Notes under the pieces: generated by a model
Databases searched by the model: none
What the model was told of the DNA's origin: nothing
Seen by the model: the letters and a program-made list of their open reading frames with translations, nothing else
Source: Aurantiochytrium sp. KH105
Lineage: Eukaryota > Sar > Bigyra > Thraustochytrida > Thraustochytriidae
Length of the DNA: 64,000 nucleotides
Assembly (NCBI GenBank): GCA_003116975.1
Contig: BGKB01000085.1
Coordinates: forward strand, 124,001-188,000
Direction of reading: 5' to 3'
Shown here: positions 19,446 to 62,499 of the stretch, piece after piece
How positions within the stretch are numbered: the stretch's first letter is position 1
Layout of the letters: each line of letters begins with the position of its first letter
Made by a program: the position numbers and the translations under genes

Positions 19446-22403
19446 ATGGCCGGATGCGGCGGCGACATGGCGGCGGCGCAGCAGGCCCAAGCCCAAGCCC
19501 AGCTCGCGGCGGCGCTGCGCGCGCGCAGGGCGCGGCGAGAGGCCGCGCGCGGCGAGCGAAGAGGCGGCTGGGAATCTGCGCTGTCGCTTTCCGAGGTGCC
19601 GCGGGAAAAGGCGACGTCGAGTGCGAGTGCGGCCAAGGCGAATGCGAGGGCAGCCAAGTCGAGGCCGCCGTTGGCGAGGAATAACCCGCCAAAACGAGCA
19701 GAGCTCGCCGCAGAAAGTTGGCAAACGGCAATGCCTGCGGCTGCGCCCAAGGTGGAGAGCTTTTCAAAATGTGACACAATCGTCGTTCCCGATTCTGATC
19801 TCGAAGGGGTGACTCCGACTTTGCTGAAGGAGAATATCGCACCAAGCATGGCTGCGAGTTTCTCTTCCAATACTCGCAAATTAATGATGGCAAATGTTGC
19901 GAAAACGTCAAGTAAAACAATATCGTCAACACCTGGCGATTCCAAAGCATTCTCGGGGAGAACTGACGTGGGAGGAAATAAAGAAAGGACCATGCCAGAC
20001 CATGTCACGAACGCGATAAAGGCGAAAGCTTGCACTCAGAGTCCATCAGAAATCGAGTTGCAACTTGCACAAAAAAAGGATGTATTTACCAAGATGGATG
20101 CAGTGACCGATTGCACCACTGCTGCAGCCGCGGCCTCAGCTGCCGCAGCCGTCTCGGGGACCACAGAGAGCAAAGACATCACGACGGAGTCAGCGCTGGA
20201 AGCAGCGCAAAAACGTGCCACGTGTTCTCGACTTGAAAGTGGGACGATTCCAGTGAAAAAGATGGCTACGACCGAGGCGAATGGACGCTTAGATACCTGC
20301 TGTACACATCCATCCATGGTAGCGCCATCGGGGCGTGGCGAGGGTCCTCGACTTGAAAGTGACGCGATTCCAGTTAAAGAGGATCCAACGATCGAGGTGA
20401 ATGAAGAGTCGAGGACATGTTGTATACACAAATCTACAGCAACGCCATCAGAGCGTGCCGAATGCCCTCAATGTGAAACCAAGACAACTCCAATTGAAGA
20501 TGAATCTATGATCGAGACATCTAAAGTCACGGCACATGCGTCCGGGACACCGAGATCCAAGCGAATCAAGCTTTCACACAATGTGGACAATATTATCTGC
20601 ATCGACGCAAGTCAAGACACCAGCGATGCTCACATTTCAGAGTCCTCGCCTCCGAATTCAAGGGAAATGCCTGCACTCGCTGCCATAAGCGTCGTCGCAA
20701 ATTCCGGATCGGAGGAGATTCTTGAAAGACAAGAGGTCGTTCCTTGCTCCGTATGCGGTCACGACCTTGGTCAGCTTGAAGGCGAAGCGCGACAAGAGCA
20801 TGAACGCGTGTGCAAAGAAGACGCTGCATTGGACCGAATGCAGAGACGCAATTATGCCTGCCCTATATGCGATCTGGATCTTGCGTGTTCACTTGTTAAT
20901 GAATCTCAACTTACAAAACGGTTGAGGCATATTCGTGTCTGCGCAAAGGCGAATGGGATCTCAGATCCGCGGCAATTCGCGCGAATCGCCAAATCCACAA
21001 CGCTGGACAGCGATGACAGGGATCCTGACGAGGAGTGCGATGAGGGCGACGAGAACTTTGAAGCGCTCATGGATGCAGTCTTTGATGAAGACGAGGAGGC
21101 TAAAGAAAATGCAGCAGCGGCTCGAGAGAACGACAACAACGGGCGCAACGCGTTTTCAATGCTCATGCAAGGATCAAAGACGCAAGGGATTGGCGGCAGA
21201 CGCGCCGTCCCAGCATCTAAAAATAATAAAGCCCAACAGCAAAAGAAAAGACCCAGGGGCGGGAAGATGTGGAGGGGGAGTACTGGGCCCCACAAGTACC
21301 CACCCCCGCAGAACCAGGTCCCTGACTGTAAGGGTTTCATCGTGGACGGCTTCAGGTATCGATTTCCAAAGCAGAAGAATACGTTTTTCTTGACTCACTT
21401 TCATGCTGACCACTACGGTGGCATACCCTACAGGTGGGATGAGGGACCAATTTACTGTACGCCAACAACAGCGCGTTTGCTAGCCATGCGGTTCAAGGTG
21501 AGCGCGGCGTGCATCCATCAAATCAAAATTGGAGGTCCGCCGGTGCGTGTGCAGGGCGTAGATGTTATCGCCTTGGATGCGAATCATTGCCCAGGCGCAG
21601 CCATGTTCCTCTTCAAAGTCCGGAAGACGGGGCGTATGCACTTGCACACGGGCGACTTGCGATATGATCGTCAATGCATCGACCTGCGCAAGACGCTGCG
21701 TATCCCTGCCGGGTTCCGCCTTTCGACGATCTTTTTGGACACAACGTATTTGCGCCCCTCCTGCCGCTTTATCTCGCAACAACAGGCGATCTCACAAGCT
21801 GCAGAGCGTCTGTCGAGAGTCCTCCGTGTGGAGTCAAGGAATGCGCTAACTTCGGCGATGGGCTTGGATGGAAAGGACAAATCAACCCTGGTTGTTGTTG
21901 GCGCTTACACAATTGGCAAAGAACGATTTCTATGGGGCCTCCTTCGTGCATGTTTTACTGAAAAGGAAAAAATTTATGTGAGCCCGTCGAAGCTACGCAT
22001 TCTCAAGTGTCTCGAGGATCTGCAAATCGATGATCTTTTGCGTTTGACGACCGACAAGTCAAAGGCACGTGTGCATCTGACCGAAATGGGCAAGCTGAAC
22101 ATGCCCACGCTTCGAGGAATGCTAGTGAATCAATTTGCGCGTGTGGTTGCACTTCGCCCCACAGGTCACGCAAAGCGTGTGCATGAGGCTGTCTCGCGCG
22201 ATGAGCGTGTGCGTATCATTTCGGTGCCATACAGCGAACACAGCTCGTTTGATGAGCTTGGGCACTTTATTGCAGATGCAAAGGTCGTGACGCGTGGGCA
22301 AGCTCTCTCGTTTGTTCCGACCGTGCAGAGTGTCGGCTCAAAACGTGGCGCTGGAATGGCAGATACTCGAAGCGAGCTCGAGGCGCTTGTGCGCAAAGTT
22401 TGA
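19446..22403 (+). CDS. SNM1/PSO2-type DNA cross-link repair nuclease (DCLRE1A-like)
   Basis: Predicted 985-residue metallo-beta-lactamase/beta-CASP 5' exonuclease of interstrand cross-link repair. Residues 1-430 are poorly conserved and contain three tandem repeats of about 40 residues (about 258-378). Two zinc fingers of the C-x2-C...H-x3-C type follow at about 433 (CSVCGHDL) and 472 (CPICDLDL), resembling the UBZ4-type finger of SNM1A. The catalytic domain begins near 631. Its metal-binding motif HFHADH is at about 652, the DANHCPGA motif at about 711, HTGDLRYD at about 734, and the beta-CASP segments GAYTIGKERF (about 819) and YSEHSSFDEL (about 930). The start is the first ATG (context GCGATGG). 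The order of domains fits SNM1A/Pso2 better than Apollo or Artemis. Confidence 0.92.
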   Translation: MAGCGGDMAAAQQAQAQAQLAAALRARRARREAARGERRGGWESALSLSEVPREKATSSASAAKANARAAKSRPPLARNNPPKRAELAAESWQTAMPAAAPKVESFSKCDTIVVPDSDLEGVTPTLLKENIAPSMAASFSSNTRKLMMANVAKTSSKTISSTPGDSKAFSGRTDVGGNKERTMPDHVTNAIKAKACTQSPSEIELQLAQKKDVFTKMDAVTDCTTAAAAASAAAAVSGTTESKDITTESALEAAQKRATCSRLESGTIPVKKMATTEANGRLDTCCTHPSMVAPSGRGEGPRLESDAIPVKEDPTIEVNEESRTCCIHKSTATPSERAECPQCETKTTPIEDESMIETSKVTAHASGTPRSKRIKLSHNVDNIICIDASQDTSDAHISESSPPNSREMPALAAISVVANSGSEEILERQEVVPCSVCGHDLGQLEGEARQEHERVCKEDAALDRMQRRNYACPICDLDLACSLVNESQLTKRLRHIRVCAKANGISDPRQFARIAKSTTLDSDDRDPDEECDEGDENFEALMDAVFDEDEEAKENAAAARENDNNGRNAFSMLMQGSKTQGIGGRRAVPASKNNKAQQQKKRPRGGKMWRGSTGPHKYPPPQNQVPDCKGFIVDGFRYRFPKQKNTFFLTHFHADHYGGIPYRWDEGPIYCTPTTARLLAMRFKVSAACIHQIKIGGPPVRVQGVDVIALDANHCPGAAMFLFKVRKTGRMHLHTGDLRYDRQCIDLRKTLRIPAGFRLSTIFLDTTYLRPSCRFISQQQAISQAAERLSRVLRVESRNALTSAMGLDGKDKSTLVVVGAYTIGKERFLWGLLRACFTEKEKIYVSPSKLRILKCLEDLQIDDLLRLTTDKSKARVHLTEMGKLNMPTLRGMLVNQFARVVALRPTGHAKRVHEAVSRDERVRIISVPYSEHSSFDELGHFIADAKVVTRGQALSFVPTVQSVGSKRGAGMADTRSELEALVRKV

Positions 22404-37807: not shown

Positions 37808-38868
37808 ATGCGGGCGGGCGCGGGCGCGGGCGCGGGCGGCGCGGCGGGCGCGGGGCCGTGGGCGGGCGCGGCGGCGACGGCAACGTCGACGTTGACGTCG
37901 ACGGCGGCGGCGACGGCGTCGGCGTCGGCGGCGGCGCTGGCGGGGAGCGTGGCGGCGGCGGCGCTGGCGGGCCTCGCGCTGTGGACGCTGCGGCGGCGCG
38001 CGGNNNNNNNNNNNNNNNNNNNNNNNNNNNNNNNNNNNNNNNNNNNNNNNNNNNNNNNNNNNNNNNNNNNNNNNNNNNNNNNNNNNNNNNNNNNNNNNNN
38101 NNNNNNNNNNNNNNNNNNNNNNNNNNNNNNNNNNNNNNNNNNNNNNNNNNNNNNNNNNNNNNNNNNNNNNNNNNNNNNNNNNNNNNNNNNNNNNNNNNNN
38201 NNNNNNNNNNNNNNNNNNNNNNNNNNNNNNNNNNNNNNNNNNNNNNNNNNNNNNNNNNNNNNNNNNNNNNNNNNNNNNNNNNNNNNNNNNNNNNNNNNNN
38301 NNNNNNNNNNNNNNNNNNNNNNNNNNNNNNNNNNNNNNNNNNNNNNNNNNNNNNNNNNNNNGGCGGCGCGCGGCGCCCGGCGGCGCGAGCGCCCAGGCGC
38401 GCGAGCGGAGAGCACGCGAGGAGGCCGCGAGGGAAGCCGAGGCCGCGATCCGCGCGAGCAAGTGGCGCCTTCCACAGACGGTGATCCTGCTCCGCCACGG
38501 CGAGTCGCTTGGCAATGTGCGCGAGAATGCGTACAGGGTCATCCCCGACTGGTGCATCCCGCTCACGGAGGAGGGCAAGATGCAGGCGCGGCGCGCGAGC
38601 AAAGACATTGTCGAGCTCATCGGCTCGCGCAAGGTCGTCATATACTATAGTCCGTACACGCGCGCCGTGGAGACGCTCGACGTGCTGCTTGATGCCATTC
38701 CCGAGGATCAGATCGCCTTTATGCAGGAGGAGCCTCGCATTCGCGAGCAAGAGTTCGCCAATTTCCAGACACCACGTACGTTCACGCCCCTTTTCTGCAC
38801 AGAATCGATCGATTGACTGACGGATGCGGCGTTATGTGTTTTATTCTTTCTTGTCCTACCCCGCGTGT

Positions 38869-39441: not shown

Positions 39442-39950
39442 CGGTAGCGTGAGATGCTTCTCGTTTGAAAATTGTTTGTCTTTTAATTAACACGGAGTCC
39501 ACGAGAGAAATACATGATTTTGCGAAGGCCAATCGGCACCTAGACCCCTCCGGCTTTGATTTTTTTTTCGAATCGGTTGGTCGACCGTTCGCCCACCGGC
39601 GAGAAACGTCGATTGCCGCAGTCTTGGTCTGCAAAGTCAACTCGTTGCAAAGTTAGACCGCGGGCGCCCCGGGGCGCCCTATATAATATATGGGCAGGCG
39701 GGCGCGTGAAGGGCGGAGCAGAAGGGGGAGGGCGGCGCGCCTAACGGCGGGAGCAGACGGGGATCGCAGGGGTGCGGCGGGCTCGCGGTGCCGCCGCGGG
39801 TGTACGGGCCTTGCTGCCCAGGAAAACCTGTGAGAGGGCGCGCGGTCAAGGGTAGCCTGTGCGCGTGGTTCACGCACGGGCTTGCGCAGGAACAGGGCCA
39901 TATGGAGGCAGCTGAAGAGGCGCCGCCGCCGGTTCTGCCGTGTGGATGAT
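39442..39950. other. Intergenic region with a TATA-like element
   Basis: Between the phosphatase stop and the next plus-strand gene. A TATATAATATATG element at about 39681-39693 sits right after a GC-rich near-palindrome (GGGCGCCCCGGGGCGCCC, about 39661-39678). This is the most TATA-box-like sequence I noticed in the window, about 260 bp upstream of the next ATG. Confidence 0.45.
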
Positions 39951-40814
39951 ATGATGCGCAGCGACCAACCTGAGTACGAAGACGCGAGGGGTTTTGTCAC
40001 CCCCATTGCAGACCGCAACCAGCCAGGCTGGGCGCACCGTCCCTCACACGGGAAGCTCTACGGCGAGAAGATCGACATGGAGCCGTGGCGAGCAACTATC
40101 CGCGAGATCTTCGAGCGAGGTATCCGAGACCAAGGCGCCAAACAGTCCGCTTCACTTATTCTCGAGAGCTTGGAGAAGCACTATCCCTTCAGGATGGACA
40201 TACCGGGGGAAGCCGACATCAACACGGAGATCCAACGTCTTTTCAGACTTCAGAAGGAGGGTCGTCCTCTCGACACTCCAGCGGGCCGAGGCATGGACAA
40301 GCGCTACGTCGCCACCCTTCGAGAAGCTATCGACCAGAATCTGACAAAGGACGAGACCCTCGACTACTTTCGGAGCAAATGGGGCGCCACTGAGGCCGCG
40401 TTGACCGCGCTCGGAGGGCCAAAGCCAAGCAAGTTCCTCCAGGACAAGACCATCATCAACAAGTGGGCACAGATGCGAAGAGCTCGGCAATCCGCTGGCC
40501 ATGGGCAAGCAACGCAAAACACGCAAAGCAGCACGCAGAGCAGCACGCAAGGCAGCACGCAAGCAGAGCGTGCTCCCAAGCGGAAGCGCCACCGGCTGGA
40601 CCCGCGCTACATCGCAACGCTCCAAGAAGCACTCGAGCAATCCTTGACCACGATGGATGCCCTCCACTTCTTCCGCGAAAAGTGGGGCCAGACCGAGGCA
40701 GACTGGAATGCGATGCCAGGTGACAAGCCGGCGTTGTTTCCGGAAGACAAGCAGCTCAAGACCAAGCTCGCCAACATGAAGCATGCCCTCAAGAAGCAGA
40801 GGTCGGAGGTTTGA
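39951..40814 (+). CDS. Orphan protein with two to three helical repeats of about 65 residues
   Basis: Predicted 287-residue protein of unknown function. Two clear tandem repeats begin at about residues 116 and 218: DKRYVATLREAIDQNLTKDE, then LDYFRSKWGATEA, and DPRYIATLQEALEQSLTTMD, then LHFFREKWGQTEADW. A more divergent first copy (WRATIREIFERGIRDQ) starts near 44. Each repeat is predicted to be helical with conserved W and basic ends. The linker between copies is a Thr/Gln/Ser run with QSSTQSSTQGSTQ, encoded by a (GCAGCACGCAAA)-like minisatellite. The basic RAPKRKRHR could be a nuclear localisation signal. No transposase motif is visible. The start is the first in-frame ATG; an upstream exon is possible. 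Confidence 0.6.
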   Translation: MMRSDQPEYEDARGFVTPIADRNQPGWAHRPSHGKLYGEKIDMEPWRATIREIFERGIRDQGAKQSASLILESLEKHYPFRMDIPGEADINTEIQRLFRLQKEGRPLDTPAGRGMDKRYVATLREAIDQNLTKDETLDYFRSKWGATEAALTALGGPKPSKFLQDKTIINKWAQMRRARQSAGHGQATQNTQSSTQSSTQGSTQAERAPKRKRHRLDPRYIATLQEALEQSLTTMDALHFFREKWGQTEADWNAMPGDKPALFPEDKQLKTKLANMKHALKKQRSEV

Positions 40815-54590: not shown

Positions 54591-57500
54591 CTAAATGATC
54601 TCGATCTTAAGCCGGTACTTCCAGTCCTTGCTGTGAACCTTGTATTGGTCGTGCGTTCGCGGCTGCCAAGAAACATCTCCGCCCAGACCCATGTGTGCAG
54701 TGTCAATGTGAATGTAAAGAGGTGAGCTCCTGTCGATATCCGGCAGCTCACTTTGATGTTTTGCTGTGGCCAAATCGTCAACAGTGTAACGCGAAGCATT
54801 GAGTTGCGCCCCACTCATCCCTGTCGGACGGGCGCTCGGTCCCGGCATCTCGATGCCCTTGGGACTCACACCAGGAAAAACTTCGCGCCGCACAGGCGCC
54901 GGCGAAGCGTGCGAAATACGAAATCCACGTCCCGAGCCTCGGCTGCGGAATGCAGCCCACTGCACATCGGCTCTTCCTCCGCACTCACTCGGTTTGATAT
55001 ACGGCACGTGCATTGCGTCAACCTCACACTCGTACACGCCCAGTGGAGCACTCGCTTTTCGGTCCGGGTACGTTTCGTGTGGCCCGCGACCCAGATACTC
55101 GACTTGATCGAATTCCCCTGGAGCTACAAAGACCATGCCAATGCGTGGCAAGGTCACGCATCCATTCACAACCGATGAGTCGGCCTCGACATCGCACGTG
55201 ACATAGATTCCATCATTTGCAAAAGTATACATGGTCTTTGTACGGAAACGTGGCCTCTTGCCGTGAAAATGAGAGACACACACCTTGACTTGTACGCTTT
55301 GCGACAACGTTTCAATCTTCAAGTCGTCCGTCACTTCATGCAGAGCGTCCAGACCTAGCTTTCTCCACAGACCATTGTATGAGGTTCCGGACTTGGGTGC
55401 CAGCTTGCGTAAAAATTCATATGGTAGCATGCTGTCGAGGCCGCCAAGATCGTTGTCGGTTGGCGCGCGGAAAAAAGCATGTCCAAATCCTCCAGATTCC
55501 AGCACCGTCACGCCACTGGGATGCATCACACTGAGAATTCTACCATTGTGCGCGTCAAACTCCACCGTGTAGGTGGCGAGACGAACCTCGAACCGCCCTT
55601 CGTGCGCTGTTACATCGGGCTCGTTCCCCCCACCAGATGCCCCAGATGGAGATGGAGGCGGCGTCAGAGCGCTAAACTTGACGCGGCCCAAATCATGGCA
55701 AAGACGCCCGGCCGGGCCCACCACGCACTCCTCAAAAGCCACTTCATGTCCTTGGGGGGCATACGCCATGTCGCGCGCAAGGACAATATATACGCGCAAA
55801 CGTAGTCCTTCAAGACCTTCGGCGAGTTCCGCAAGCGCGGCGCTTGATGGAAGGCCATTTACGTTGCCGCTCTTTTCGAGGTAACAACGTCCCGATGCCA
55901 GCGGGACGGCAGATGCAACGCCGAGCACTGACCAGTGCACCGCAAGAGCGTTTAAAGGGGGCGCATGCGCCTCAAAGACAATTTCTGCGTCAACATCAAA
56001 GTCTTTGCGCACGCCAAAGGTGATTACTGCAGGCTGCTGCAAGTATTTGGCCTCATGCATGCTGGGATGCGGTGTGCGATCAGGAAAGCAAAGGCCATTT
56101 ATGCAAAAGGTCTTGTCCTCCACGCCGCTCTTGGGCCCAAAATCACCGCCATAGGCCCACTCGCCTTGCAAAAAGGATGCCTTGGACAAACCCTGGTCGA
56201 CCCAATCCCAGATGAAACCCCCTTGCATACGCGGGTGTAAGGGGGAGCGAAAGAGTTTCCAGTAATGATGCAAATTGCCATTCGAGTTTCCCATAGCGTG
56301 CGCGTACTCGCACAGAATGATTGGGCGCCGCGAGGTCACGCGCTCGACCTCAATCAATCGCTTCGGGCTATCGTACATCGGACAGATAATGTCGGTCGCC
56401 TTGGGATCGCGACCGTCGCCCAGGAGCAAGGGAGAGTCGCCACTTGCAATGCCGCCTTCATATTGAACGAACCGCGTGGGGTCGACTTGACGGATCCACT
56501 TGGCGCACAAGCGAGCGTTTGGTCCGCAACCAGATTCATTGCCAAGAGACCAACCAATGATGCAGGGATGGTTGCGAGATCGCTTCACCATGGCCTGGCA
56601 GCGAAGTAAAAACGCCATTTTCCACTTTGGGTCGCACTGCAAGAGAGAAATGGCCGCAGCCACTGTAAATCCATGCGTTTCCACGTTCGCCTCGTCCACG
56701 ACGAGCATGCCGTATTCGTCACAGAGCTCGTACCAGCGATGTGCGTTCGGGTAGTGACTGTTCCGCACCGCGTTGAAGTTGAATTGTTTCATCAGCTCGA
56801 GGTCTCTGCGCATCAGCATCTCGGGAACGGATTTGCCATGCTCTGGACTCCATTCGTGCCGATTCACGCCGCAAACGAGCACGGGCTCGCCATTCACACG
56901 CAATTGGTTCTTGTAAATATCCACGCGGCGAAGACCTACGCGCGTTGACTCAATTTGAATGGCGACAGCGCTTGTGTTGCCGCCATCGAGGGCCTCGAGC
57001 ACCAAAGTGTAGAGATATGGATCCCGCGGACTCCACAGGCGTGGCTCTGCCACCTCGAGTGTAAGATTTGCGATCGGAACCTCCGACTCCAGACGATGGC
57101 GACTGAATTCAGCGAGAGCGTAGCCTGTGGCATCTTGCGTGGCCACCTTTGATCCATTTGCGTCATAGAGAGTCGCACGGAGAACCATGCGATGCGCATC
57201 AGTGGCGAGGCCTGAGAAACGTGTCTGAACGTGGACGGAGGCGGCCTCGGGATCTGTTTCAACTACATAGTCAACGATGCCGCCCGTGTGAGGCCTACAA
57301 GACAGCTCAATGTCACGAAAACACCCGGAGAGCCACCATTGGTCCTGATCTTCGAGATAGCTTCCATCGGTCCAGCGATAGATGACCAGGACGAGGGAGT
57401 TCGTCGCACCAAGATGCGCATGGGAAATCTTCACCTCGGTCTCAGTCATGCTGTCTTGTCCATAGCCTACGCGCACGCCATTCACATAAACGTCGACGCC

Positions 57501-58079
57501 AGCGCCGGCTCCATGCAGAATCAAAAACACATCGCGTTCGCCCAGGAGGACTGCCTCTTGCCATGTGTCGGGGAGGTCAAAGCTCAAACGGTAGACCCCA
57601 GTCGGGTTTTCGTCCGAGGGCACGCGCGTGCTAAGAGTGTGAGGGCGCTTCCATGGATACTTGATGTTAGTGTAGATGGGTACGTCTTCGTCGCCTTCAA
57701 TTTGCCAATTACTCGGAATAAGCGTTTGGCCCCATGAGGCCTCTTCCTCCTCCTTCTTACCCTGGACATCTCCCGTGTCCCCTCCGAGGTAGACGCCAAT
57801 ATCATGAGGACGCACGCTGGCCGGGTTCGCGAACAGACGAAACTCGCACATAACTGGGTCCTCGACTGTTGCAAGGAAGCGGACCCACTCGGTCTCCTGT
57901 CGTCCCTCCTTGACTGCAGCAAGGGCCTCTTCAGTTGAGGAGACAAGCCGTAATGGCGTGTGGTGCACGAGAGCATTCTCGTAGACAATTTGAGGGTTTT
58001 GCCAGTGCTCTAGCTTGCCACTGCTTTCAAAGAAGCCTCGCAGACTGTTGAGGAAGCGCAGATACGCTGTTTTCACCAT
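54591..58079 (-). CDS. LacZ-type beta-galactosidase, glycoside hydrolase family 2
   Basis: Predicted 1162-residue enzyme that hydrolyses beta-galactosides. Domain order follows LacZ: sugar-binding jelly roll (about 90-330, with YTNIKYPW and NPTGVYR), immunoglobulin-like domain, (beta/alpha)8 barrel (about 400-700), second Ig-like domain, and the C-terminal small-chain beta-sandwich (about 850-1155, with GHAFFRAPTDND and YLGRGPHETYPDRK). The acid/base Glu is in GWSLGNESGCG (about 515) and the nucleophile Glu in ILCEYAHAMGNSNG (about 588). VNRHEW carries the conserved His. No signal peptide is seen, so an intracellular enzyme like yeast LAC4 is expected. The length is slightly above E. coli LacZ (about 1023) owing to loops. 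Start context is CAAATGG. Confidence 0.93.
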   Translation of the reverse strand: MVKTAYLRFLNSLRGFFESSGKLEHWQNPQIVYENALVHHTPLRLVSSTEEALAAVKEGRQETEWVRFLATVEDPVMCEFRLFANPASVRPHDIGVYLGGDTGDVQGKKEEEEASWGQTLIPSNWQIEGDEDVPIYTNIKYPWKRPHTLSTRVPSDENPTGVYRLSFDLPDTWQEAVLLGERDVFLILHGAGAGVDVYVNGVRVGYGQDSMTETEVKISHAHLGATNSLVLVIYRWTDGSYLEDQDQWWLSGCFRDIELSCRPHTGGIVDYVVETDPEAASVHVQTRFSGLATDAHRMVLRATLYDANGSKVATQDATGYALAEFSRHRLESEVPIANLTLEVAEPRLWSPRDPYLYTLVLEALDGGNTSAVAIQIESTRVGLRRVDIYKNQLRVNGEPVLVCGVNRHEWSPEHGKSVPEMLMRRDLELMKQFNFNAVRNSHYPNAHRWYELCDEYGMLVVDEANVETHGFTVAAAISLLQCDPKWKMAFLLRCQAMVKRSRNHPCIIGWSLGNESGCGPNARLCAKWIRQVDPTRFVQYEGGIASGDSPLLLGDGRDPKATDIICPMYDSPKRLIEVERVTSRRPIILCEYAHAMGNSNGNLHHYWKLFRSPLHPRMQGGFIWDWVDQGLSKASFLQGEWAYGGDFGPKSGVEDKTFCINGLCFPDRTPHPSMHEAKYLQQPAVITFGVRKDFDVDAEIVFEAHAPPLNALAVHWSVLGVASAVPLASGRCYLEKSGNVNGLPSSAALAELAEGLEGLRLRVYIVLARDMAYAPQGHEVAFEECVVGPAGRLCHDLGRVKFSALTPPPSPSGASGGGNEPDVTAHEGRFEVRLATYTVEFDAHNGRILSVMHPSGVTVLESGGFGHAFFRAPTDNDLGGLDSMLPYEFLRKLAPKSGTSYNGLWRKLGLDALHEVTDDLKIETLSQSVQVKVCVSHFHGKRPRFRTKTMYTFANDGIYVTCDVEADSSVVNGCVTLPRIGMVFVAPGEFDQVEYLGRGPHETYPDRKASAPLGVYECEVDAMHVPYIKPSECGGRADVQWAAFRSRGSGRGFRISHASPAPVRREVFPGVSPKGIEMPGPSARPTGMSGAQLNASRYTVDDLATAKHQSELPDIDRSSPLYIHIDTAHMGLGGDVSWQPRTHDQYKVHSKDWKYRLKIEII

Positions 58080-59046
58080 TTGGTCTTCGCTCAACAACGA
58101 AAGGGAAAAGGAGTTCTGTGTCGCTCGCCCGTTTTCCAATAGCGCAGGTGCGGCGGAGACTTGCAAAATGCAATCTAAACGTCTCGCCTGTACAGGCTTA
58201 CGCGACAGGGCAAGAAGACCAAGCGCGCTGGGTCTGCTGCACCTTGACCCACCCACGTCGCTTTGTTGCTCCAATCACTTTACGTCCCACCTCGACCTCG
58301 CTCGACCAATCAATCAGCCCGTGTCGCTCTCGTCACGTCGCGAGTTTGCTTTTTGCTTGCCCGCTGCCGGCTGCCCTTTACTTCCTTGCCTGCCGACTGC
58401 TCTCTGCCTGCAGATTGCTCTTTGCCCGCGGAGGCTGCCGCGCGTCCCGGCGATGTGACGGGTGGCACGATGCCCGATGTCGCCCCGCACTCTTGGAAGG
58501 CGCCCATCGAGCCATCGCTGTTATGAACTCACTAGACGCGGCACACACATCTCCGCCTCTGCCACGACGACCATTATCATCAACATGGTGGTCATCGCGG
58601 AGGTGGGTGACGAAAGAAAGACAGGAGTCATGGCACTGCAGCCTCGGTAGGCTGGCAGACCGGGCTCACATCGTTCGGTAAATGGCGCGATGAAAGATGC
58701 ACTTGTGCTGGGTGTTAGTGTGAATGCTGCTGCTGCTGCTGCTGCTGCTTACTGGGTGCAAGCCTTGTGCGCAACATTCCAAGAAGCTGAAGAAGTTGGG
58801 ATGGGACGGGATAGAGAGAGGCAAGGAAAAGACAACAATGCGTTGCAGCAAAACATTCTTTGAGTTGCAGGCCTACGTAGTAGCTATACTTCACTCCGGC
58901 TTCGGCGCTTGATGCGTTCAACAGAGAAATACGGACAAAGGCGGGAGGGGGAAAGGGGAAGAAGGAGCCTTTATCCATTGTTGCTGCAACAAGGCATGAA
59001 GTTGGTGACAGTGAGTAAGTTTGGTGGCAGGAAGCACCACCTGCCT
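58080..59046. other. Intergenic region, 1 kb
   Basis: Upstream of the LacZ-like gene and downstream of the LOTUS-like repeat gene. It contains a (CTG)n run at about 58726-58750 and GCCTGC-type repeats at about 58380-58440. No conserved frame seen. Confidence 0.45.
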
Positions 59047-62000
59047 CTAGGAGCAGAGCTCTGCGAGGAGAATGCGATTTGACGCATCGTCGTAGACGAG
59101 CCACTGCGGGTAGCGCTGGCAAAAGGTGGTGATCCCCATAAGGGTGATGACATTGTAGTCTTTGCTGTGATCGGTCGATATTTCAGCCAGACGAGAGACC
59201 GAAACAGCGCCACGGTGCCGGAGAAGCCAGGTGCGCACGACGCAAAGTGCATGCAGGTTGTCGTCGTCGTCCAGCACAGAAACTGTAAGAGGAGTCTTAC
59301 GGTGCGGAGTCGAGACACCCGTGCCCGTTCCTGACCTCGAAGAAGCAAGACCAGAGCGCTTGACCGTGAGCACATAGGTTTTCGGATTCCAGCCCAATAA
59401 GTGCGGGTGATCGTTGCAAAAGACGCCAAGCGTACGCGTCTTGATGACTTTTGCTGCCTCGGGGTTCTCCTTGTAAAAGTTTCCCAACACGGACGCCTTG
59501 TAGGGCCCATGCGACTTTTCAAGCAGCCAATTGGCCAAGAGATTGGCAATACCGAGACTTTCTTTCTTCCATGCTCCCGACGACGAGGGAGCGCGCGCCG
59601 CATCTATGCCTCCATCTGCATTTGCATTGCCAGCCCCCGCGCTTGATTTGGCAGAGGTAGTCTCGGGCGGCACCCGGGCACCGATTCGGGCGCTCCAAAT
59701 AATATGCGACTTGGCGTCCCAGCCCAAGAGGTCTGGGACAGCATTGATGAAGACCTGCAGGGTCTTGGCTTTGACATGGCGATTGATCTGAGGAAAGACC
59801 TTGTAAAAAGCACCGAGATTGGCCGCATTTGTGTGACCGCCGTGTTCATTTTCGAGCCAAAACGCCATGGCCGTCGCGGCTGACCGGTCCGAGGTGGTCA
59901 GGCCGTCCGATGTTCCGTCGGGTTGCAATCCGGGCGTGTGGGCGGCACTTGCATTGGGGAACAAAGGCTTGCCGCCGCTGCGCTGCAATTGCTGCTGCGC
60001 GAGGGGCGTCGCGGCATCGCGCGAAGGTGAAATAGGGAGAACATTCCCGCCCGCCGGAGACGAGGGCTTGTTCGCTCCAGAGACGGCCGAGAGAATCCTC
60101 GACTTGCTGTTCCAGCGCAACACGTCGCTGTGCTCGAGCGTGAAATTATGCAAGGTTTGACTCCGGATAAGCTTGGCGAGCACAGGATGCTTTCGGTAAA
60201 AGGCGCCGAGGTTGGCCACGTTCGTCGAACCATTGTGGTGCTCCTGTAGCCACTCAGCAACGACCATGGCTGAGAGAGTTGGGTTCGCCGTATAAAAGGC
60301 CTCCTCGAGCTCGGGCGTCGGATTCTCGCTCGCGATCCAACTCGCAAGGCTCTTTCCTTGGCCGCCGCTGCCACCACTGCCATTGCCATTGGAACTTCCA
60401 TTGCCAAGCACACCGTTCTCGCCACCACTGCCGGGGCTGCCAGCCCCGGTCCCGGTTCCTGGTCCGGCACCGGGCCCCTTATCCGGGCGAACGAGGGTGA
60501 CAACGCGCGTCTTGGGATTCCAGGTCATGAGGTCTGAATTCTGACGAATAAAGGAGGCCAACGACTGCCCGCGTACAACGTTAGCGAGGTCGGGTTTGGC
60601 CTTGTAAAACATGCTCAGCGCATGCGAATTGGCTTGCGAGCCGTGCTTGTCCCGAATCCAGCGCACCATGGCTTCAGCCGCAGAGCGGCTCTGCTCGGGA
60701 AGCACGGGCGTTGGCTGTTCTCCTGCCACGGCAATAACGTGCGAAGACGGAGACCATGAAAGAACGTCGCTGTTCGACTCTACAAAGTGGCCCAGCGTCA
60801 TGGTCTTGATAATCTTGGCCATCTCGGGGTTCGCCTTGTAAAAGCGACCCAAGTGCGCCGCCTTGGTGGACCCACCGAATTCCTTGTGGAGCCAGACAGC
60901 CAATTCTTCAGCACACTCGCGCATTGTCAATCCAGAAATAACCTCTCCGTCAATCTTGATCTTGCCGTCATCCGAAGAGCCAAAGTCATTTGTGTCTGTG
61001 CCATCGACAGCGCCGCCAGTGCTATTGTCGCCGTTGGCATTTCCTTGCGATTGGAAAATGCTTGCGCGCAATGGCGAAAGGCTCGTCCAGGGGTTCACAG
61101 GGGTCTTTGGCACCACTTCGGACGTAACCACCTGGGTACTACTTGTGGACTCAAGCGTCTTCGTCGATACGTCCTGGCTTCCTGTGGCCATTGTCGGCGT
61201 CGTCGATGCTCCTGTTCGCGCAGAAGGCATGCTCAACCGAGGAGGCGAAGGCGTTGAAGACGGAGGGGTAGCCTTGGCTAATCCGCTTCCAGACTTGGCC
61301 TCCACGGAGGAAACTGTCGGATTGAGCATGCCACTCAAAAGCCCGCCTGGACTCTCGAGGTTTCGCATGGCCGACACTAGCAGGGCGTCTCCTTCCTCGT
61401 CGAGAGGGTGCACATTTTCAGCATCCTCGTGTTGTCTGCTTGTTTCAAGGCTCGCTAGTCCCGCCGATGTGTTCCACATGAGAGACCTTGCGGTGGGCGA
61501 GACACCCGGCGCAACGTCGCTTCCCGCGACTGAAGATGAGGATGACATTGATGATGACGTTGAAGACGTTGTTGAGGACGTCGAGGACGTCGAAGGGTGA
61601 TGCCAGACATTATTCAAAACGCCAGAACCCGGGACAGCAAAGGATTGCGGCAGGGATGGCGGAGGTAGTTGCTGCTGAGGCTGCAGAGACGAAGCCTCGA
61701 AGCCATTGCTGTTCTTTCCATTGAGGACGCTGGGTACCTTGGGGTGCGCCTGCTTATTTTCAAGCATGTCGTCGAAGCGCTTCACGTCATTCTCCACATC
61801 AACGCCCGAGACCAAGGGCGGTGGCGGGGGAAGACTGCCGGTGCGGGCCTCTTCCACAATTCTTTGAACATCTTCCTGTGAAACAGTCGAAGGGTCGAAA
61901 TTGTGCAACGTCAAGGCTAGATTCCGAAGCTGGCTGGCTTGAATGCCCATCGCTTGCGCAAAGGTCTCCGTCGTGCAAATCTCAGCGGATCCATCGTCTG

Positions 62001-62499
62001 CAAGGGTATGAAGCGGAACGTACTGGATGTCCTTGACAAAGTAGAGCTCGGGGCTTTGCGCAACAACATAGACGTCACTGCTTCCAACACGCAACTCTGT
62101 TGCACATTCGTAGCAAAGCACCGCGAGCGCCTCCGTCGATCCAGACTTGGCCTGCCAAAGATCGATATTGGCGTCCGAAAGGAGAATTTGCAGTTTATCT
62201 TTGGCGGCCTTGATCGCCGCGGACTCTTCCACGCCCGGGGCAAAGCCCGTCACCGTTGAGAATATCCGCGACTTCACGTGATCTCCATCAAGAATGCCAT
62301 GCACGCGGAAACCAGCTTGGCGCCATGCGGACACCCTTTTCTCCACCTCTGCGCCCACCGCTTCGGCAGAGGCCGCTCCAGAGTGCGAGGCGTGCGCACA
62401 CAGAGCTCTTACATCCACAAAGAGCTCGCCCTTCTTGAGCGTCTCTCTGGCGTGCGCTGCCTGGAGCCGGGCCCTCGCCTCTTGGTCGAACTTGTCCAT
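59047..62499 (-). CDS. PIN-like N-terminal domain plus about six winged-helix/LOTUS-like repeats
   Basis: Predicted 1150-residue protein. Residues 1-185 have the alternation of a PIN/FEN-type nuclease fold: LFVDVRALC, HGILDGDHVKSR, SGSTEALAVLCYE, VYVVAQSPELYFVKDIQYVPL. The usual acidic cluster (EAD, DxD) is eroded, so activity is doubtful. A Ser/Pro/Gly-rich linker covers about 215-520. Repeats of about 65 residues begin near 529, 607, 743, 873, 983 and 1082. The consensus is a-WL-x4-G-x5-a-LG-x-FY-x3-P-x2-a-x2-a-x-TL-x-F-x6-LLxW-x5-a-a, where a is hydrophobic. Examples are VLGNFYKENPEAAKVIKTRT and HPHLLGWNPKTYVLTV. Size and pattern recall OST-HTH/LOTUS RNA-binding winged helices, which pair with NYN/PIN nucleases in MARF1-type proteins. 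This is inference by eye. The start ATG is at 62499. Confidence 0.75.
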   Translation of the reverse strand: MDKFDQEARARLQAAHARETLKKGELFVDVRALCAHASHSGAASAEAVGAEVEKRVSAWRQAGFRVHGILDGDHVKSRIFSTVTGFAPGVEESAAIKAAKDKLQILLSDANIDLWQAKSGSTEALAVLCYECATELRVGSSDVYVVAQSPELYFVKDIQYVPLHTLADDGSAEICTTETFAQAMGIQASQLRNLALTLHNFDPSTVSQEDVQRIVEEARTGSLPPPPPLVSGVDVENDVKRFDDMLENKQAHPKVPSVLNGKNSNGFEASSLQPQQQLPPPSLPQSFAVPGSGVLNNVWHHPSTSSTSSTTSSTSSSMSSSSSVAGSDVAPGVSPTARSLMWNTSAGLASLETSRQHEDAENVHPLDEEGDALLVSAMRNLESPGGLLSGMLNPTVSSVEAKSGSGLAKATPPSSTPSPPRLSMPSARTGASTTPTMATGSQDVSTKTLESTSSTQVVTSEVVPKTPVNPWTSLSPLRASIFQSQGNANGDNSTGGAVDGTDTNDFGSSDDGKIKIDGEVISGLTMRECAEELAVWLHKEFGGSTKAAHLGRFYKANPEMAKIIKTMTLGHFVESNSDVLSWSPSSHVIAVAGEQPTPVLPEQSRSAAEAMVRWIRDKHGSQANSHALSMFYKAKPDLANVVRGQSLASFIRQNSDLMTWNPKTRVVTLVRPDKGPGAGPGTGTGAGSPGSGGENGVLGNGSSNGNGSGGSGGQGKSLASWIASENPTPELEEAFYTANPTLSAMVVAEWLQEHHNGSTNVANLGAFYRKHPVLAKLIRSQTLHNFTLEHSDVLRWNSKSRILSAVSGANKPSSPAGGNVLPISPSRDAATPLAQQQLQRSGGKPLFPNASAAHTPGLQPDGTSDGLTTSDRSAATAMAFWLENEHGGHTNAANLGAFYKVFPQINRHVKAKTLQVFINAVPDLLGWDAKSHIIWSARIGARVPPETTSAKSSAGAGNANADGGIDAARAPSSSGAWKKESLGIANLLANWLLEKSHGPYKASVLGNFYKENPEAAKVIKTRTLGVFCNDHPHLLGWNPKTYVLTVKRSGLASSRSGTGTGVSTPHRKTPLTVSVLDDDDNLHALCVVRTWLLRHRGAVSVSRLAEISTDHSKDYNVITLMGITTFCQRYPQWLVYDDASNRILLAELCS

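Follow-up and report, generated by a model that had tools for sequence, protein, structure and literature searches.

An open reading frame (ORF) at 59047–62499, on the minus strand of a 64,000-nucleotide stretch of Aurantiochytrium sp. KH105 contig BGKB01000085.1 (contig positions 124,001 to 188,000; the whole stretch analysed is called the window below), encodes a protein in which copies of a ~70-residue repeat follow a 215-residue N-terminal head: five of them are clear, a sixth has diverged, and a truncated seventh may be present. The repeat array is real and stands far above chance, and its unit is confidently predicted to fold as a winged helix. The best reading of the whole protein, to which a probability of roughly 0.45 can be given, is that a LOTUS-like array and a possibly dead PIN/FEN-like head together make up a multivalent RNA-binding scaffold, the role in RNA binding being one that we infer. 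From the N-terminus to the C-terminus its parts are as follows:

59047–62499, minus strand: the whole ORF, 1150 amino acids, uninterrupted from ATG to TAG.
61855–62499, minus strand: N-terminal head, residues 1–215, a candidate eroded PIN/FEN-like domain by its motif positions and a low-confidence model.
60922–61854, minus strand: linker after the head, residues 216–526, 61% S/T/G/P/N/Q/A, isoelectric point (pI) 4.7; probably disordered, to judge by this composition.
60706–60921, minus strand: repeat 1, residues 527–598, from self-comparison and alignment; predicted by AlphaFold2 to be a winged helix, predicted local distance difference test (pLDDT) score 89.5.
60472–60690, minus strand: repeat 2, residues 604–676, from self-comparison and alignment.
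60277–60363, minus strand: possible truncated extra repeat, residues 713–741, picked after inspection.
60070–60282, minus strand: repeat 3, residues 740–810, from self-comparison and alignment.
59674–59892, minus strand: repeat 4, residues 870–942, from self-comparison and alignment.
59347–59556, minus strand: repeat 5, residues 982–1051, from self-comparison and alignment.
59050–59259, minus strand: repeat 6, residues 1081–1150, diverged, at the C-terminal end of the protein, from a profile match.

By a codon-bias measure trained on nine further long ORFs in the window, this frame scores best (0.079, against 0.047 for the next-best frame, which is antisense), and when head, linker and repeats are scored separately among the three sense frames the annotated frame comes out top each time. 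We regard 59047–62499 as one large unspliced gene, probably that of a protist. Within the array, the ten pairs among copies 1–5 score 108–146 in an ungapped 60-residue self-comparison, for which ten shuffles of the protein give maxima of 25–46 and the best other real pair gives 40. Repeat 6 stays at shuffle level by this measure (30 and 27); against a profile of copies 1–5 it reaches 8.7 bits, a value that 2000 shuffles of its own sequence never attained. Residues 713–741 (LASW...LEEAFYTANP), which resemble the first half of a repeat, score 5.1 bits and are matched by 1 of 2000 shuffles, with the proviso that the segment was picked after inspection; this half-length relic, which runs into the start of repeat 3, hints at partial loss of a copy by internal deletion. 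Across the six-copy alignment W10, L24 and F46 are invariant and identity to copy 1 spans 16–43%. A few residues separate repeats 1 and 2, and the linkers 2–3, 3–4, 4–5 and 5–6 consist of S/T/G/P/N/Q/A to the extent of 78, 71, 72 and 55%, respectively. Copies 2–5 are basic in pI (9.7–11.0) and copy 6 mildly so (8.0), while copy 1 is not basic (6.5). A sequence-only reading of this DNA had counted about six repeats of about 65 residues, and self-comparison and profile bear this out, with the unit drawn out to about 70; the consensus it gave holds in most copies, LGxFY and TLxxF each being exact in four of the six and inexact in the other two.

The repeat modules resemble LOTUS domains, which bind RNA. 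AlphaFold2, run on the six-row alignment (72 residues), returns a model of mean pLDDT 89.5 and predicted template modelling (pTM) score 0.72, in which DSSP assigns helix 2–15, strand 18–20, helix 21–30, helix 32–49, and strands 54–57 and 62–65. On this model the repeat can confidently be read as a winged helix, the fold of OST-HTH/LOTUS domains; a winged helix had been set beforehand as the expectation on which the sequence-only reading could fail, and it did not fail there. OST-HTH domains are described as winged helices distinguished by a helical insert of their own that lies between helices 2 and 3 and bears a Ghxph motif (PMC2848206), and Egl domains as being marked by an added helix 3 (PMC13186709). 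In the model, helix 32–49 comes right after helix 21–30 with no DSSP break and would span the place of both the OST-HTH insert and the third helix. We consider it likely, though unproven, that the repeat is a LOTUS/Egl-type domain. The competing explanation is that the repeats constitute a separate, lineage-specific winged-helix family outside LOTUS, used for protein–protein or DNA contacts, with an unrelated alpha/beta domain at the N-terminus; it is the less probable account, though one with an appreciable claim.

A good part of the comparative evidence weighs against LOTUS membership and speaks for such a separate family, in that the sequence links of the repeat to OST-HTH fail or are marginal. 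Neither Pfam nor NCBIfam has a match above cut-off for the whole protein, the head or single repeats. Against a profile of 27 prokaryotic OST-HTH domains (loci L081–L108, with the partial L099 left out and L109–L115 not used), hhalign aligns 47 columns colinearly, interrupted by three gaps (two of one residue and one of two), at P 0.089, a score equalled by 26 of 300 column shuffles; no significant sequence-profile match to OST-HTH/LOTUS was obtained by either route, whereas OST-HTH subgroups recover each other at 96–97% probability. Copies 1–5 alone give P 0.058 (without shuffles), single bacterial subgroups align with the repeat over 4–14 columns only, and a combined LOTUS profile run on the protein reported zero matches. 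The Ghxph motif fares no better: in the weak OST-HTH alignment the glycine of GYSKL falls opposite a lysine, and the copies read KTMTL, RGQSL, RSQTL, KAKTL, KTRTL and TLMGI, so that the glycine is missing and the aliphatic end of the motif is kept. Structural comparison of the repeat model with the PDB by Foldseek first brings up an assorted, non-LOTUS company—the viral DNA-binding winged helix F-112, DsrD, CapW, eIF3 and Z-beta—every hit being at E 0.32 or worse and LOTUS entries being absent from the best 50 of 343 rows. In a viral structure library there are 314 matches, the best of them at E 0.13 and thus none that reaches 0.001. When the repeat profile is compared with PDB sequences, the top row is yeast mitochondrial uS9m (E 0.016 over 27 positions), which we take for chance. 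No relative was confirmed in viral contigs or in bacterial or archaeal genome contigs; these viral and prokaryotic collections are the wrong place to look for a eukaryotic family.

On the other side of the scale, the order and spacing of the elements in the repeat fit LOTUS, and one eukaryotic domain responds to its profile. With three sequences ascribed to human TDRD7 domains, hhalign gives P 0.0095 over 47 columns when they are taken jointly and P 0.11, 0.0069 and 0.099 when they are taken singly (all without shuffles). Used as an unfiltered hidden Markov model (HMM), the repeat profile ranks TDRD7 domain 2 above all 200 of its own shuffles; domains 1 and 3 are equalled by 59 and 36 of 200 shuffles. 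For the 27 bacterial rows the number of shuffles that do as well ranges from 4 to 200 of 200, nine rows unreported by the HMM having been scored as 200/200. This makes just one of 30 LOTUS sequences that outscored all its shuffles, and because 30 were tried the result is suggestive only. The sensitivity of these searches is itself limited, for in a control with the same domains Pfam finds domain 1 at 6.7e-15, places domain 2 at 0.0015 (under cut-off) and has no match to domain 3, which we take to be a LOTUS domain. Thus, the mixed outcomes with OST-HTH and TDRD7, seen together with the limited power of Pfam, mean that sequence neither proves nor excludes LOTUS, and the original LOTUS identification has the winged-helix model behind it, membership in the family being shown neither by the sequence searches nor by Foldseek.

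The head presents a weaker case. Its motifs run in the order LFVDV (26–30), ILDGD (69–73), STEAL (121–125), QSPE (148–151) and LALTLHNFD (194–202), with the core positions VDV 28–30, LDGD 70–73, STEA 121–124 and HNFD 199–202. The order VDV, LDGD, STEA, NFD follows that of the acids in FEN/XPG-type nucleases; by our own labelling, which we assume rather than derive, the first two sites are acidic, one of the third pair is kept and the later ones are changed. On motif order, a PIN/FEN-like head can be put forward tentatively, at somewhat less than even odds. In the best alignment with a single archaeal FEN, HNFDPS lies opposite TDFNPD and QSPE at the DYD site. A different possibility is that the head is some other Rossmann-like domain with no nuclease ancestry, the LOTUS-like array behind it being real; this would agree with a model that shows, at moderate confidence, only a beta-alpha-alpha-beta-alpha start, and with FEN, Mkt1 and NYN alignments that fail to convince. 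We think it improbable, given the order of the motifs, the register of the late NFD and QSPE with FEN acids in that one alignment, and the precedents for a nuclease fold paired with LOTUS or Egl domains (PMC2848206, PMC13186709).

Several results nonetheless weaken the case for a nuclease ancestry of the head. Its single-sequence model is poor (pLDDT 50, pTM 0.43): strand 25–29, helices 30–39 and 45–61, strand 65–69 and helix 92–107 are seen, the rest is mostly of low confidence, ten-residue blocks average at least 70 only over residues 31–60 and 91–100, and Foldseek on this poor model yields a meaningless list (best E 0.6). The alternating alpha/beta head of the sequence-only reading is thereby upheld for some strands and helices and left at low confidence over most of the remainder. 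The FEN comparisons drew on 30 archaeal loci, many of them trimmed to begin at the first M and so shortened, with subsets of >250 amino acids for hhalign, at least 290 for the FEN HMM and, for single comparisons, 12 sequences of at least 330. The FEN profile score is equalled by 183 of 1000 shuffles for the whole head and by 417 of 1000 for residues 20–110; slices give 81 (95–215), 32 (160–215) and 24 (172–210) of 1000, the shortest of them having been picked after the alignment was viewed. The hhalign score is equalled by 61 of 100 shuffles, the 12 single FENs by 3 to 110 of 200, and in the best of these alignments the motifs of the first half of the head are out of register. Taken across Pfam, the FEN HMM, hhalign and the 12 single FENs, no convincing sequence similarity of the head to the FEN/XPG family emerged, and the PIN/FEN proposal keeps its motif order, with alignments that do not clearly beat shuffles; it is neither demonstrated nor refuted. 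Comparison with a sequence ascribed to yeast Mkt1 is at shuffle level (184/500 with BLOSUM62, 104/500 with BLOSUM45). This Mkt1 sequence, which we presume to be that of a degenerate FEN-like protein, is itself assigned to XPG_N by Pfam at 3.4e-29, where the head has no match, and against three single FENs it is equalled by 0, 14 and 2 of 200 shuffles, which the head does not rival. A FEN head may therefore be degenerate and still be picked up by searches that miss this one, and these controls lower the odds of a PIN/FEN head, of the scaffold reading and of any joining of a FEN head to a LOTUS array, and raise those of a head that is not nuclease-derived.

The profile tests of the head are in their turn weak. 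NYN and FEN are placed in one superfamily (PMC6294520), yet a control comparison of NYN and FEN profiles gives no significant match. For the NYN region an alignment was made from the 25 of 27 OST-HTH loci with >110 residues ahead of the domain, several rows of which carry non-NYN sequence as the frame was read to the previous stop; the hhalign score of the head against it is equalled by 11 of 100 shuffles. This bears on a third explanation, namely that the protein is a true MARF1/limkain-type endoribonuclease whose active NYN/PIN nuclease and LOTUS array cut target mRNA. The overall logic, a possible nuclease-type head followed by many winged helices, is the same, and NYN (LK-nuclease) with OST-HTH is described as the usual bacterial architecture (PMC2848206). 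Still, the GKNxxD and SDSDF-type motifs of the bacterial NYN+LOTUS proteins are absent from residues 1–215, AQSPE stands where the acids would be expected, Pfam has zero NYN matches, and on the whole protein, at E up to 10 with the HMMER filters on, it reports no family of any kind and hence no RRM. As the NYN hallmarks are lacking, MARF1 orthology is not supported; the MARF1-like label first attached to it was too specific, and a MARF1-type nuclease is very improbable. An active nuclease head was rejected on its missing motifs rather than by assay, and, unlike the NYN of human MARF1, the head should not cut RNA.

Returning to the scaffold reading, the repeats would be distant winged helices of the LOTUS/Egl type. 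They would bind structured RNA, probably in the form of stems, with avidity arising from the array. If the head is PIN/FEN-like, it has too few acids for the usual metal site and might be a docking module: with less support than the array, it may be seen as a nuclease fold that has lost most of its metal-binding acids and serves as Mkt1 does. The protein would then act by bringing partners together and not by cutting, so that mRNA is repressed, localised or stored. The fuller version, in which an inactive FEN-like PIN head and a six- or seven-copy LOTUS/Egl-type array were joined independently in a protist to act purely as an RNA scaffold, seems unlikely to us. Were it true, it would provide a third pairing of a nuclease fold with winged helices, besides NYN with LOTUS and Egl domains with a 3'-5' exonuclease, and a nuclease fold with a LOTUS-type array would count as a recurrent means of gathering structured RNA. 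With their small number and short length, the six repeats would also be a simple system for asking whether stems, G-quadruplexes or partner proteins are bound; and if they are not LOTUS, they represent a winged-helix repeat family unnamed by the library searches made here.

In stramenopiles OST-HTH has already been reported, the partners there being Tudor, WW, MORN and ubiquitin-system ones (PMC2848206). Among the matches listed from the open-licence literature (titles and beginnings of abstracts), none describes a FEN-like PIN with a LOTUS array, and none reports arrays of LOTUS domains from thraustochytrids. The repeat profile found nothing in 188 genomes of the phylum of a Myxococcales metagenome-assembled genome (G020, locus L051), an empty answer that is uninformative without a positive genome. 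Dropped as far below cut-off or at chance level were the Pfam rows YBR230W-A (0.13) and ToxA_N (0.11), an NCBIfam row (0.094), the PDB-sequence row EryAIII for the head (2.8) and, for the repeat profile, a second uS9m row (0.022), the designed repeat protein CTPR-rv4 (0.075) and SPAG6 (1.4).

The other long unspliced ORFs of the window include, by Pfam, a papain-type protease, an ankyrin protein, an ion channel and a GH2 enzyme, which fits an intron-poor protist. Adjoining the gene on the same strand (54591–58133, minus) is a full-length bacterial-type beta-galactosidase with four GH2/beta-galactosidase Pfam domains and 30–35% identity to the best 80 prokaryote loci; since only prokaryotes were searched, an old transfer is a question and not a result. 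At 39882–40814 (plus) a 310-amino-acid ORF with zero Pfam matches at 0.001 contains, by eye, a ~65-residue segment twice, DKRYVATLREAIDQ...KWGATEA and DPRYIATLQEALEQ...KWGQTEA. A run of 358 N at 38004–38361, inside a GC-rich region, is probably a scaffold gap, and ORFs spanning it are therefore unreliable. At 19446–22403 (plus) lies a DNA-repair metallo-beta-lactamase gene (Pfam DRMBL 4.1e-15, Lactamase_B_2 below its cut-off), presumably of the SNM1 type, with Cys/His zinc-finger-like segments upstream, as seen by eye.

A parallel may finally be drawn with the known systems in which a nuclease-type domain and LOTUS-type winged helices meet. The bacterial NYN (LK-nuclease/DUF88) proteins share with this one, on our proposal, a nuclease-superfamily head joined to OST-HTH, whereas they are described with one or two OST-HTH domains (PMC2848206) and GKN...D can be seen by eye in 20 of 25 of their stretches, each viewed over its first 150 residues, while the head here has no motif of this kind. 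Human MARF1/limkain b1 has an NYN domain, by which it cuts RNA, two RRMs and eight LOTUS domains (PMC6294520); the placing of a nuclease-type fold N-terminally with a LOTUS-type array behind it would be alike, whereas an active NYN endoribonuclease is the human condition and neither NYN motifs nor RRMs were found here. Egalitarian combines three LOTUS-like Egl domains with a 3'-5' exonuclease homology domain and binds RNA stem loops (PMC13186709), and so resembles the present protein in its LOTUS-like winged helices on flexible linkers and in a nuclease-homology domain, here a proposed one; its exonuclease fold follows the winged helices, whereas the putative PIN/FEN-like head precedes them. 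Fission-yeast Mkt1 has a FEN-like PIN domain that keeps two of six active-site residues and supports silencing when these are mutated (PMC7026591). It shows how a FEN-type head could work without cleaving, though it differs in that the available text of the same source describes no LOTUS array, and in the strong XPG_N match of the sequence ascribed to yeast Mkt1. Drosophila MARF1 has an RRM and six tandem LOTUS domains, through which it binds CCR4-NOT, and by its authors, in the available text, no homology to nucleases (PMC6168497): it too has six tandem winged-helix-type modules, no working nuclease to be expected and the logic of a post-transcriptional scaffold, while possessing an RRM and LOTUS domains recognised in print where the repeats here went unrecognised by searches. 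By analogy with Mkt1, Egalitarian and the fly MARF1, a multivalent RNA scaffold would be the most likely role of the protein.

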